Positions 21,605 to 25,827 of a stretch of DNA of 64,000 bases are shown here, piece after piece. Source of the DNA: Rhodobacterales bacterium (GTDB lineage: Bacteria; Pseudomonadota; Alphaproteobacteria; Rhodobacterales; Rhodobacteraceae); contig PDRZ01000022.1 in assembly GCA_002747035.1 (NCBI GenBank), positions 1-64,000 of the forward strand, read 5' to 3'. Below the pieces are notes generated by a model. It ran no database searches. It was not told the origin of the DNA and saw only the letters and a list, made by a program, of their open reading frames with translations. The position numbers were made by a program, and so were the translations under genes. Every line of letters starts with the position of its first letter. Position 1 is the first letter of the stretch.

Positions 21605-22450
21605 TTACCGGAACGGCTCTTCCAGCCGCAGCAGGCGGCGATGAAATTCGTTCAGTTCCTCGGGCGCAACAAGCCCCGATTTGCGCGCGGTTTCATATAT
21701 CGCCTTCGGGTTGTGTTGAATATGTTCATACGCCATCCGGGCCGCGCGACATCCCGACAGGGATTCCTTGACCGTGCGGGTGGCATAGCCTTCCCAGAAA
21801 TTGTTGTCATAGGACGATACGCGGGACAGAAAATTGAAACTACAGGTCAGCGCCCCGCGCCGTGAAACAAGTGCGACAATGCCTTGTTCCTGAAACATTA
21901 GGATGCCACGGAATTCGCGGCTGATGGGGTCGGGGTACAGCCCTTGCATGCGCATCACTTCGCGCGGTTCGTATCCGCGCAGGAAGGTGAACCCGTCCTT
22001 GCGGTAGACATAGACCAGTCCCAGCACAACCCGCGTCACGTCCGTAAAGCTCGGGCGGCTGAATCTGAAGAAACCGGACGGCAGCTGTTCTTCGTGAATG
22101 TTCGTTGATCCCTGGCTCAGAAACGGCGCAACCTCCGGGTGGGTGATCAAACCCGCGCCACGCTGGTTGATCTGGTCCACAGGCTCAAGCAGAATACGCG
22201 CATCCACATCAAAGAACGTGCAAATCCGGTGCAGCACATCGGGACGGGGGAAACTTTCGCCGCTCAGATACCTGTTGAACTGCGTCCGGTTCACGCCCAG
22301 TTCACGGCAAAGCCCGGCGACGGACGGATAGCGATTGGCCAACTGGCGCAGATTCGCACCGAAAATAGATCTCAGTTCGGAAGGGGCGACCGTTGGAGAA
22401 GGGGCGACCGTTGGAGAAGGGGCGACCGTTGGAGTTGTCATAGCGCACAT
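21605..22450 (-). CDS. XRE-family HTH regulator with a repeat-encoded N-terminus
   Basis: 281 residues. The HTH lies at about residues 30-85 (LRQLANRYPSVAGLCRELGVNRTQFNRYLSG); the remaining 190 residues form a conserved-looking domain I cannot name. Residues about 7-24 consist of TVAPSP repeats encoded by three exact 18-base tandem copies. ATG 22450 is chosen because GGAG lies seven bases before it. It is divergent from a small gene across about 250 bases containing a GACGCA dyad, so it may regulate itself and that gene. Confidence 0.85.
   Translation of the reverse strand: MCAMTTPTVAPSPTVAPSPTVAPSELRSIFGANLRQLANRYPSVAGLCRELGVNRTQFNRYLSGESFPRPDVLHRICTFFDVDARILLEPVDQINQRGAGLITHPEVAPFLSQGSTNIHEEQLPSGFFRFSRPSFTDVTRVVLGLVYVYRKDGFTFLRGYEPREVMRMQGLYPDPISREFRGILMFQEQGIVALVSRRGALTCSFNFLSRVSSYDNNFWEGYATRTVKESLSGCRAARMAYEHIQHNPKAIYETARKSGLVAPEELNEFHRRLLRLEEPFR
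22381..22434. repeat. Three exact 18-base tandem repeats inside the XRE gene
   Basis: The unit AAGGGGCGACCGTTGGAG occurs at 22381-22398, 22399-22416 and 22417-22434 without a mismatch. Each copy adds six residues (TVAPSP in the gene's frame), so copy-number change would keep the frame and lengthen or shorten the tail before the HTH domain. Confidence 0.95.
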
Positions 22451-23072: not shown

Positions 23073-23633
23073 TCAACTGCCGCGCGACAGGGCCGCAACC
23101 CCGGTGCGGGCCACTTCGACAAGCCCGAGAGGGCGCATCAGATCGGTGAAGGCGTCGATTTTTTCCGGCGTACCGGTGATTTCAAACACAAAGCTCTCAA
23201 GAGTGCTGTCCACCACATTGGCGCGGAAAATATCGGCAAGCCGAAGCGCTTCGACCCGCTTTTCCCCATCTCCGGCGACCTTCAACAGCGCCAGTTCGCG
23301 TTCCACCGACGCACCTTCCACGGTCAGGTCATGCACCGCGTGCACCGGCACGATCCGGCCCAGCTGGGCCTTGATCTGCTCGATCACCTGCGGCGTGCCG
23401 GTGGTGACGATGGTGATGCGGCTGCGATGGCCTTCGTGGTCGATCTCGGCCACGGTCAGGCTGTCGATATTGTACCCGCGACCGGAAAACAGCCCAATGA
23501 CACGGGCCAGAACCCCCGCCTCGTTGTCGACAACAACAGCCAATGTGTGGGACTCGGTCACATCGCTGAAGGTCGGGCGCAGATTATAGGCCGAATGCTT
23601 GTTCGAGCCTTTTTTGATTTTCAGAGCGTTCAT
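23073..23633 (-). CDS. ilvH: Acetolactate synthase, regulatory small subunit
   Basis: 186 residues from ATG 23633 (AAAGGA nine bases upstream); the longer frame overlapping ilvI lacks a sensible start. An N-terminal ACT domain (HTLAVVVDNEAGVLARVIGLFSGRGYNIDSLTV, about residues 23-56) binds valine for feedback control, and the C-terminal half (about 95-186) stimulates the large subunit. It lies 35 bases after ilvI on the same strand and forms the ilvIH operon controlled by the upstream attenuator. Length agrees with the family, slightly longer than E. coli IlvH (163). Confidence 0.95.
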   Translation of the reverse strand: MNALKIKKGSNKHSAYNLRPTFSDVTESHTLAVVVDNEAGVLARVIGLFSGRGYNIDSLTVAEIDHEGHRSRITIVTTGTPQVIEQIKAQLGRIVPVHAVHDLTVEGASVERELALLKVAGDGEKRVEALRLADIFRANVVDSTLESFVFEITGTPEKIDAFTDLMRPLGLVEVARTGVAALSRGS

Positions 23634-23667
23634 GGCTTCAAATCCTTTTCCAATGGGGTCCGGTCGA

Positions 23668-25422
23668 TCAGACCAGAACCGCGCCTTTCGACCCGATAGC
23701 ATCCTGCGTGCTGGCTTCGCCCAGCAGCATCTTGTTATGCGGTTCGCCCGACGGGATCATCGGGAAGCAGTTCTCGTGCTTTTCAACCATACAGTCGACG
23801 ATCACCGGTCCATCATAGGCGATCATTTCCCTGATCGCCTCGTCCAGATCTTCCGGGTTGTCCACCCTGATGCCCTTGCACCCGAACGCCTCGGCCAGTT
23901 TCACGAAATCAGGCAGGGATTCGCTCCACGAACTGGAATAGCGTTCACCGTGCAGCAATTCCTGCCACTGGCGCACCATGCCCAGACGTTCGTTGTTCAA
24001 AATGAACTGTTTGATCGGCAGGCGATATTGCATCGCCGTGCCCATTTCCTGCATGTTCATCAACCAGCTGGCTTCGCCCGCCACGTTAATCACAAGACTG
24101 TCGCGATGGGCCATCTGGACACCAACCGAGGAGGGCAGGCCATAGCCCATGGTGCCAAGACCGCCCGAGGTCATCCACCGGTTGGGATCGTTGAAGGTCA
24201 GGTATTGCGCCGCCCACATCTGGTGCTGGCCGACCTCGGTACAGACATAGCGGTCGTGATCGCGGGTCAGCGCCTCAAGCCGCGCCAGTGCGTATTGGGG
24301 TTTGATGACACTGCCGACCTGTTCGAATTTCAGACAATTGACCGCGCGCCAGTCGTCAATCCGGGCCCACCATTCCTGAAGTCCCGCCTTGTCGGTTTTG
24401 CGACCACGGGATTTCCAGACCTTGAGAATGTCTTCCAGCACATGCCCCACATCGCCAACAATCGGGATATCCACGCGGATCACCTTGTTGATCGAACTGG
24501 GGTCGATGTCGACATGGGCCTTGGTCGATTTGGGCGAGAAGGCCGACACCAATCCGGTGATCCGGTCATCGAACCGCGCACCGATATTGATCATCAGATC
24601 ACAGTCGTGCATCGCCATGTTGGCTTCGTACAAACCGTGCATACCCAACATGCCGATCCATTTGTCGCCGGTGCCGGGATAGGCACCAAGCCCCATCAGG
24701 GTCGAGGTGATGGGAAAGCCGGTCGCCTCCACCAGCTCGCGCAACAGCTGGCTCGCCGCCGGGCCGGAATTGATCACGCCGCCGCCGGTGTAGAAAACCG
24801 GCCTTTTCGCCGTTTCCATGGCTTCGACCAACTCCTTGATCGCCTCCATGTCGCCTTTGACCTGGGGCTGGTAATGGCTGACATCGGTTTTCTGGGGCGG
24901 GGTGTATGTGGCGCTGGCGAATTGCACATCCTTGGGGATATCAATCACAACCGGCCCCGGACGGCCCGTGGTCGCCACGTGGAACGCTTCGTGAATGGTC
25001 GGAGCCAGCGATTCCGTGTCCTTAACCAACCAGTTATGCTTGGTACAGGGGCGGGTGATGCCCACGGTATCGGCTTCCTGAAAGGCGTCATTGCCAATCA
25101 TGAAGGTCGGCACCTGACCGGTTAAAACCACGATCGGGATACTGTCCAGCAGCGCGTCGGTGATCCCGGTCACCGCATTGGTGGCCCCGGGGCCGGATGT
25201 TACAAGAGCCACGCCGGGCTTGCCGGTGGACCGGGCATACCCTTCGGCCGCATGAACCGCGCCCTGTTCGTGGCGGACCAGAACGTGGCGAATATCATTC
25301 TGAAGAAAAATCTCGTCATAGATCGGCAGGACAGCCCCGCCCGGATATCCAAATACCACATCGACACCCTGATCCTTGAGGCACTCAACGATCATTTTCG
25401 CTCCGGTCATCTGACGTGTCAT
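23668..25422 (-). CDS. ilvI: Acetolactate synthase, catalytic large subunit
   Basis: 584 residues, thiamine-diphosphate enzyme that condenses two pyruvates (or pyruvate and 2-oxobutyrate) to start valine, leucine and isoleucine synthesis. N-terminal TPP-pyrimidine domain with catalytic Glu in [18 protein letters not shown] (about residue 51), central FAD-type domain, and C-terminal TPP-PP domain with the Mg-binding region. [20 protein letters not shown] is typical of AHAS. Start ATG after GGAGCTAAAAAC. Expression should follow branched-chain aminoacyl-tRNA supply through the leader at 25461-25560. Confidence 0.96.
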
Positions 25423-25460
25423 GTTTTTAGCTCCAGTTCAAACGTCAACAGTTTCAGCAC

Positions 25461-25487
25461 AAAAAAGCCCCCGCGAATGGCAGGGGC
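25461..25487 (-). terminator. Attenuator terminator of the ilvIH leader
   Basis: On the minus strand GCCCCTGC (25487-25480) pairs with GCGGGGGC (25474-25467), one G-U pair and a five-base loop, followed by TTTTTT (25466-25461). It sits between the leader peptide and the ilvI ribosome site, so it stops transcription before ilvI unless a rival structure forms. Confidence 0.9.
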
Positions 25488-25529
25488 GCATGGGGATGGT
25501 TATGGCAATCCGTTACCGGCCCATGCGCC
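25485..25529 (-). promoter_or_regulatory. Anti-terminator hairpin of the ilvIH leader
   Basis: Reading leftward, GGCGCATGGG (25529-25520), inside the last codons of the leader peptide, is perfectly complementary to CCCATGCGCC (25494-25485), whose end overlaps the base of the terminator's first arm. A ribosome stalled on the upstream Leu/Val/Ile codons would leave this hairpin free to form and block the terminator; one reaching the stop would cover it. The mechanism is inferred from known ilv and leu leaders. Confidence 0.8.
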
Positions 25530-25560
25530 AAGAACCTACAATTACGACGAGCGGTGTCAT
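25513..25560 (-). CDS. Leader peptide of the ilvIH attenuator (MTPLVVIVGSWRMGR)
   Basis: A 15-codon reading frame on the minus strand, ATG at 25560-25558 and TAA at 25515-25513, preceded by AAAGGG at nine bases. Residues 4-8 are Leu-Val-Val-Ile-Val, all products of the pathway that the downstream operon starts (CTC GTC GTA ATT GTA). This is the layout of transcription attenuation leaders for branched-chain amino acid operons. It lies about 90 bases before ilvI, followed by mutually exclusive anti-terminator and terminator structures. Confidence 0.92.
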   Translation of the reverse strand: MTPLVVIVGSWRMGR

Positions 25561-25590
25561 CGGCAAAAACCCTTTCATGCATTGCGGCGA

Positions 25591-25618
25591 CCTTATGTCT
25601 GCGGCGGTGCAGCGTCAA
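25591..25618 (-). promoter_or_regulatory. Probable promoter of the ilvIH leader transcript
   Basis: On the minus strand TTGACG (25618-25613) and ATAAGG (25596-25591) are spaced by 16 bases. A start a few bases further would place the leader ribosome site and ATG 20-30 bases into the RNA, as expected for an attenuator leader. Confidence 0.55.
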
Positions 25619-25827
25619 CAGTCAAATCTCTGAATAAAATGTCGCAGGGTGTATTTTTTGGGTTCTTTTATTTCTCTCTGCGCGGTGATGGCGAATTATT
25701 GATAAATTTCAGGCGGAAATTCTGCCCTCTTTCCTCTCAAAATGTCGCAAAGCCCCAGCGCGGCAAAGCGTCCGATAGCGGGATCGGAAGGAACGGCCAT
25801 GATGGGCCAGTGAAAGAGGAGCACGCC

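Follow-up and report, generated by a model that had tools for sequence, protein, structure and literature searches.

The segment directly upstream of ilvIH, read on the minus strand from position 25618 to position 25461 of the window (the whole stretch of 64,000 nucleotides that was analysed), is very probably a ribosome-mediated transcription attenuator, which would make ilvIH expression dependent on charged Leu-, Val- and Ile-tRNA. Judged from the sequence of the element and of its relatives, acetolactate synthase would most likely be made only when branched-chain amino acids are scarce. The observation of a preliminary description, that the parts of an attenuator lie here in the right order, was confirmed by sequence comparison and stands far above chance expectation.

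All the parts were found where that description had placed them. The -35-like TTGACG (25613-25618) and the -10 region CATAAGG (25591-25597), within which ATAAGG lies at 25596-25591, 16 nt from TTGACG, are followed by AAAGGG (25570-25575), the likely ribosome-binding site of the leader. The leader ORF MTPLVVIVGSWRMGR* runs from ATG to TAA at 25513-25560 and encodes 15 residues; its control codons CTC GTC GTA ATT GTA occupy 25551-25537. Codons 11-14 correspond to the 5' strand of a 10 bp switching helix, GGCGCATGGG (25520-25529), recognized by direct reading and in the alignment. The next element is a small hairpin, CCG-GUAA-CGG (25510-25519), defined in an alignment of 116 sequences and carrying the leader stop UAA in its tetraloop. 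The 3' strand of the helix, CCCATGCGCC (25485-25494), was assigned from the alignment and from a partner-exchange test. The GC-rich terminator hairpin GCCCCTGCCATTCGCGGGGGC (25467-25487), read directly and also picked up by the terminator scan, shares 3 nt with this strand. The T6 tract at 25461-25466 is the expected premature 3' end.

The element lies directly upstream of the gene for the acetolactate synthase large subunit. The gene ilvI, with its ATG at 25422, covers 23668-25422 on the minus strand and matches NF006581 (acetolactate synthase 3 large subunit) with 1113 bits for a cut-off of 974. It is accompanied by ilvH, the small subunit gene, at 23073-23702 on the minus strand (NF008864, 224.5 bits, cut-off 119, residues 50-208 matched); the true start of ilvH may lie downstream of the first ATG in its ORF. 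The source genome is an incomplete assembly of 2.52 Mb, 77.67% complete, and among named organisms its ilvI is closest to that of Rhodobacteraceae such as Marimonas, Lentibacter and Roseovarius. An ORF of 281 codons at 21605-22450 on the minus strand looks by eye like a regulator and carries a three-fold PTVAPS repeat at its N-terminus.

Taken by itself, the window sequence gives modest support. The fold z-score was -1.73, with 11 of 200 shuffled sequences folding as well, and three terminator-like sites were counted in 3 kb compared to a shuffled mean of 2.1; single-sequence folding is uninformative here. At the gathering score, the Rfam search of the whole window returned tRNA only and no riboswitch family. 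At a loose threshold, five matches fell within 25400-25700; one was to the family Atu_C8, discussed below, and the four others, which look like chance, were set aside.

The comparison with relatives was far more informative. The sample comprised 149 genomes, one per genus of the family and including the window genome; the first 100 residues of IlvI found a match in each, and the sequence upstream of the best match was read. A strict rule, drawn up after leaders had been seen, called for an ORF of 8-25 codons with at least four Ile/Leu/Val in six and a terminator 20-45 nt past the stop. A leader and terminator satisfying it lie before ilvI in 134 of the 149 genera. Among dinucleotide shuffles the rule was satisfied by 1 of 740, and among other 400-nt stretches from the named loci by 2 of 2160. 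One genome, L146, was left out solely on length, the first start codon giving too long an ORF. Nine leaders were placed by hand, bringing the total to 141 of 149. Weak cases among them are L147, whose longest run is IAI, L175, with only LLDV, and L153, which lacks a T4 after the hairpin. Among the best 80 named loci, 79 have a leader ending in RMG, and the 80th (L045) offers only 101 nt of upstream sequence. No such leader was seen in the upstream stretch read in seven of the 149 genera (L170, L207, L208, L218, L224, L225 and L227). The stretch before ilvI looks AT-rich in L224, L225 and L227.

The control signals are retained as well. In 140 of 141 cases a TTGAC occurs no more than 90 nt ahead of the leader, versus 8 of 135 stretches taken further upstream, and an SD-like 4-mer lies between -18 and -4 in 130 of the 141. 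Less confidence attaches to the -10 assignment: the consensus over 116 family sequences is CATAAT, its spacing is uncertain and is best at 15 nt in 78 of 140 leaders, and the promoter pair proposed earlier was absent from the output of the promoter scan.

A covariance model of 96 positions (R1), built from 54 of 112 leaders, gave at E <= 0.01 a total of 134 matches in 131 of the 149 family genomes; 129 of these matches, in 128 genomes, lie directly before ilvI. The window genome has one strong match. The G024 genome has ilvI matches in two places, both preceded by an attenuator of their own (G024:C24:54116-54210 and G024:C49:87742-87837). The leader peptide of G141 is that of one G024 copy, and contamination is possible.

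The leader peptide is uniform in size, with exactly 15 codons in 107 of the 141 leaders. Val is present in 140, Leu in 135 and Ile in 122 of them, and 117 leaders combine all three. Codon choice is strongly biased in codons 2-9 of the 79 named leaders, where CTA accounts for 57 of 93 Leu codons, compared with 71 of 3633 in ilvI, and GTA for 114 of 229 Val codons, compared with 176 of 3578 in ilvI. Such rare codons would give a sharper response to tRNA charging. The Gly codon at position 9 is GGA in 58 of 100 leaders, and this preference suggests that the rare-codon bias may partly reflect the avoidance of local structure. Arg in RMGR is encoded by CGC in 100 of 100 leaders preselected for 15 codons and for an RM close to the end; as six codons are possible, the RMGR end seems to reflect the RNA. 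The reading frame is also locked in position relative to the helix: the stop codon begins 13 nt past the start of GCGCATGG in 113 of 115 leaders, and the last control codon sits 8 nt ahead of GCGCATGG in 93 of 115. In L128 (G061 contig 118) a TAG stop ends the leader immediately ahead of the helix strand, into which most leaders continue; this may be natural variation or a sequence error, the contig being small.

An alignment of ilvI leaders across relatives had been proposed as a check, with conserved branched-chain codons and compensatory stem changes as the supporting outcome, and both were observed. Alignment A1 holds 116 of 132 leaders, the omitted ones being 15 strongly diverged or awkward sequences and the duplicate L141. 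In the switching helix and stop hairpin taken together, 6 of 13 pairs have two-sided changes (shuffled mean 1.4, with 0 of 500 shuffles as high) and 93.6% of the cells are paired, versus 20.9-59.9% in slid versions. For the stop-codon hairpin by itself, 92.2% of the cells are paired over the 116 sequences and all three pairs show two-sided changes; in the terminator these affect 5 of 8 pairs. Both the helix with its stop hairpin and the terminator exceed all 500 shuffles on every measure, the shuffles ignoring relatedness. Between the stop hairpin and the 3' strand of the helix, a further small hairpin could be drawn in 83 of 117 leaders; its register was inconsistent, and it is not claimed.

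The most diverged leaders were examined by exchanging partners. In the 25 leaders whose 5' strand has lost CGCATGG, the mean energy was -26.7 kcal/mol with the own partner versus -19.7 kcal/mol with exchanged ones, and 0 of 20000 permutations was as good. The own partner ranked first in 8 of the 25 leaders and in the top three in 16; the poorest ranks were those of L175 (14th), L193 (9th) and L181 (7th), so that some of these leaders gain nothing from their own partner over a foreign one. Different motif strings explain why 25 diverged leaders enter this test and 27 enter the overlap count given below. In these lineages RMGR is gone and the pairing is retained. The leader ORF with its Ile/Leu/Val run is accompanied by an intrinsic terminator between leader and gene, and by an alternative helix, selected for pairing, of which one strand lies within the ORF.

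We propose that the element works in the following way. When all tRNAs are charged, the leading ribosome would reach the leader stop and cover the 5' helix strand and the stop-codon hairpin. With this strand covered, the terminator would form and transcription would end at 25461-25466. When Leu-, Val- or Ile-tRNA is scarce, the ribosome would stall on codons 4-8, and the helix GGCGCAUGGG:CCCAUGCGCC could form with the stop-codon hairpin nested inside. The helix would take the first three bases of the terminator stem, leaving little energy to close the terminator base at the U tract, and the polymerase would read into ilvIH. The leading edge of the ribosome is about 13 nt ahead of the A site; assuming this value, stalls at four of the five control codons free the whole helix strand in 65 of 115 leaders, the commonest class. 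The sequences establish the anatomy, its conservation, the compensatory changes, the codon bias and the positional locking; translation of the leader, stalling, termination and the direction of the response we infer.

The earlier suggestion that stalling favours read-through is consistent with this geometry; its weaker point is that the anti-terminator shares only 3 nt with the terminator and that both are predicted to be able to coexist. The minimum-energy fold of the window element (-33.0 kcal/mol) contains the full terminator together with a 7-bp helix, so that base pairing alone does not make the two exclusive. Helix and terminator share 1-4 nt in 113 of 114 canonical leaders and are 14 nt apart in the remaining one; in 17 of 27 leaders scored as diverged, 1-17 nt separate the end of the helix from the terminator. 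With an overlap of 3 nt in the window and none in some relatives, the switch is not a plain strand exchange, and a classical antiterminator with full overlap was considered and dropped in view of these overlaps. The presence of the helix nevertheless changes the closing energy of the overlapped terminator pairs from -9.9 to -1.5 kcal/mol in the window, and from -7.6 to -1.0 kcal/mol on average in 113 canonical leaders. Since these pairs sit at the U tract, we deem clipping of the terminator base enough. For leaders with a gap, crowding in the exit channel is a suggestion. Only 6 of 108 leaders have an upstream strand that rivals the helix partner by equalling it or coming within 3 kcal/mol of it (mean for the upstream strand -12.9 kcal/mol, against -21.6 kcal/mol for the helix); the scarcity of such competitors leads to the prediction that lost leader translation would give read-through.

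Could the locus hold a constitutive promoter-proximal terminator next to a hydrophobic ORF present by chance, without translational regulation? The poor single-sequence statistics (fold z -1.73, a terminator scan near the shuffled rate) would suit such a reading, to which the strict-rule counts (134 of 149 versus 1 of 740 and 2 of 2160), the compensatory changes and the rare control codons leave almost no credit. A metabolite-binding riboswitch, or a protein-binding leader, acting in place of ribosome stalling would equally place a structured and conserved RNA ahead of a biosynthetic operon, and would accommodate a helix and a terminator that are not strictly exclusive. What is conserved at the core, however, is a set of simple helices together with an ORF that has control codons and a stop at a fixed position, and no riboswitch family reached the gathering score in the window, which makes this explanation highly improbable.

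An unlikely possibility, deserving somewhat more attention, is that the leader RNA acts chiefly as an independent small RNA or encodes a functional small peptide, like rnTrpL/peTrpL of Sinorhizobium, its position at ilvI being secondary. Attenuators can double as trans-acting RNAs, as described for rnTrpL in the accessible part of PMC10117765. The window leader moreover resembles the Rfam small RNA family Atu_C8 (RF02502) over its full length, with 27.5 bits and an E-value of 0.0012, below the gathering cut-off of 50. Against this possibility, peptide positions 2, 3, 10 and 11 vary freely and the invariant CGC codon points to RNA pairing; RMGR is lost where pairing is kept, and 129 of the 134 family matches are directly before ilvI. 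We retain ribosome-mediated attenuation of ilvIH as the preferred reading.

The matches away from ilvI revealed a second branch. Four of the five such matches in the family (L260, L261, L263 and L264) precede the gene of a transporter with 390-417 residues. The model matched 9 of 230 genomes of the wider class, six of them outside the family, and in five of these six (L251-L255), which belong to other alphaproteobacterial families, the match lies before the same kind of transporter. The two transporters that were scanned, those of L251 and L230, are Bcr/CflA-type MFS proteins (TIGR00710, above cut-off). MITVVVVVMRERRVDR and MNPKSVVVVVSRRCMVR are examples of leaders in this branch, in which L254, L255 and L261 have only a degraded or weak one. 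Neither L262 (G125, family) nor L256 (class) had a leader and gene that fitted, and both matches were set aside. In a survey of transporter loci, an automatic rule was satisfied in 5 of 30 from the class (L265, L266, L268, L270 and L272) and in 3 of 30 from the family (L295, L312 and L310), the L310 match being judged spurious. L263 was not among these 60 loci. Of 14 further transporter stretches inspected by eye, L269 retains the RNA layout although its leader is degraded, and in L299 the leader is weak; the other 12 showed no attenuator, including the window genome's own homologue, L275. The distribution of the transporter attenuator is patchy.

Atu_C8, filed as a small RNA of Rhizobiales, has much in common with the ilvI element: a Val/Ile-rich ORF with GRMG or a close variant towards its end, the GCGCATGGG/CCCATGCGC helix, a hairpin that contains the stop codon, and a terminator. 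It differs by its location before a Bcr/CflA transporter instead of ilvI, by a leader apparently without a 5' UTR, and by a helix which ends about 8 nt ahead of the terminator. Scores above the cut-off came from one genome among 240 of the class and, within one order, from 6 of 36 genomes, the first included; in all six of these unselected genomes the match lies directly before a Bcr/CflA-like transporter. The above-cutoff loci are L230 (1480-1640), L242-L246, L326 (195-314) and L327 (217-337). L326 and L327 are named Rhizobium replicons in which Atu_C8 also precedes the transporter; they were found through the transporter and are therefore not independent. Read by eye, the leaders are for example MRMMQVSVVVGRRMGKAA, MIGIETIVVVGRRVGKAV and MKIAMVLVVVIGRMGRMV; the stop codon is in the hairpin loop and the stem varies (GGCGG/CCGCC, GGATGG/CCATCC). 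Of eleven sub-threshold matches, L231 alone lies before ilvI, with its own leader, and neither ilvI nor such a transporter was seen at the others. On this layout Atu_C8 looks like a transporter attenuator. Five of 25 matching transporter regions were read, two having Atu_C8, two a TPP riboswitch and one neither. The TPP riboswitches stand before transporter relatives on Agrobacterium and Mesorhizobium plasmids (L325 274-390 and L329 256-372), which places the transporter group under differing RNA controls from one replicon to another.

The trp, leu and ilvGMEDA operons of E. coli are controlled by four-strand attenuators, in which stalling at control codons decides the choice of terminator. 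The window element resembles these systems in its control codons and in its predicted stalling and terminator choice; unlike them, it lacks a strong upstream competing strand and has a minimal terminator overlap. The pairing of strand 1 with strand 2 typical of E. coli trp has a counterpart in only the 6 of 108 leaders with a competitor. Closer to the present case, Vitreschak reportedly predicted in 2004 branched-chain-dependent ilvIH attenuators in alphaproteobacteria, and those predictions are said to have the gene, the logic and the bacterial class in common with our element. In Corbino 2005 (PMC1273637) an alphaproteobacterial ilvB leader peptide is mentioned as already described, and in Valverde 2008 (PMC2573895) an S. 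meliloti ilvIH cis regulatory element is listed, both with Vitreschak 2004 as the source. The Caulobacter crescentus ilvBN/ilvIH attenuator is in print in Schrader 2014 (PMC4117421), which cites Tarleton 1994. It resembles our element in that a rho-independent terminator and a leader containing tandem Ile and Val codons precede an acetolactate synthase operon; it differs, by its description, in that Leu is among the control codons here. The stop-codon hairpin and the rare-codon bias are features observed in the present leaders. In Rhodobacterales, uORFC-8-2 (PMC8632094) is a Cys-codon attenuation motif before cysS, also ribosome-mediated and from the same order; amino acid, gene and structure are different, and the main text does not contain the term ilvI. 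As attenuation of ilvIH/ilvBN in alphaproteobacteria is already in print, the ilvI element joins a known class of regulators. The stop-codon-hairpin layout, the rare-codon bias and the transporter branch were not found in the literature searched, in which subscription journals are thinly covered, and the same literature yielded no paper on an ilvI attenuator in Rhodobacterales or a transporter attenuator of such a type.

We consider it reasonably probable that one module has been reused in Alphaproteobacteria, with Leu/Val/Ile codons before ilvIH and a Val run before a Bcr/CflA-type transporter, that Atu_C8 is a mis-filed valine-responsive attenuator, and that in many members the helix abuts the terminator without overlapping it and would prevent termination, not through strand exchange, but by clipping the hairpin at its base or crowding it there within the RNA polymerase exit channel. 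The Rfam small RNA label of Atu_C8 could then be corrected to transporter attenuator. The natural variants, including those with rebuilt helices, allow a test of how little overlap an antiterminator needs. The element also offers a route to annotating an ORF of 15 residues, which is likely to escape gene callers. For the family, it represents a compact putative attenuator, present as a single copy at ilvI in most genera.
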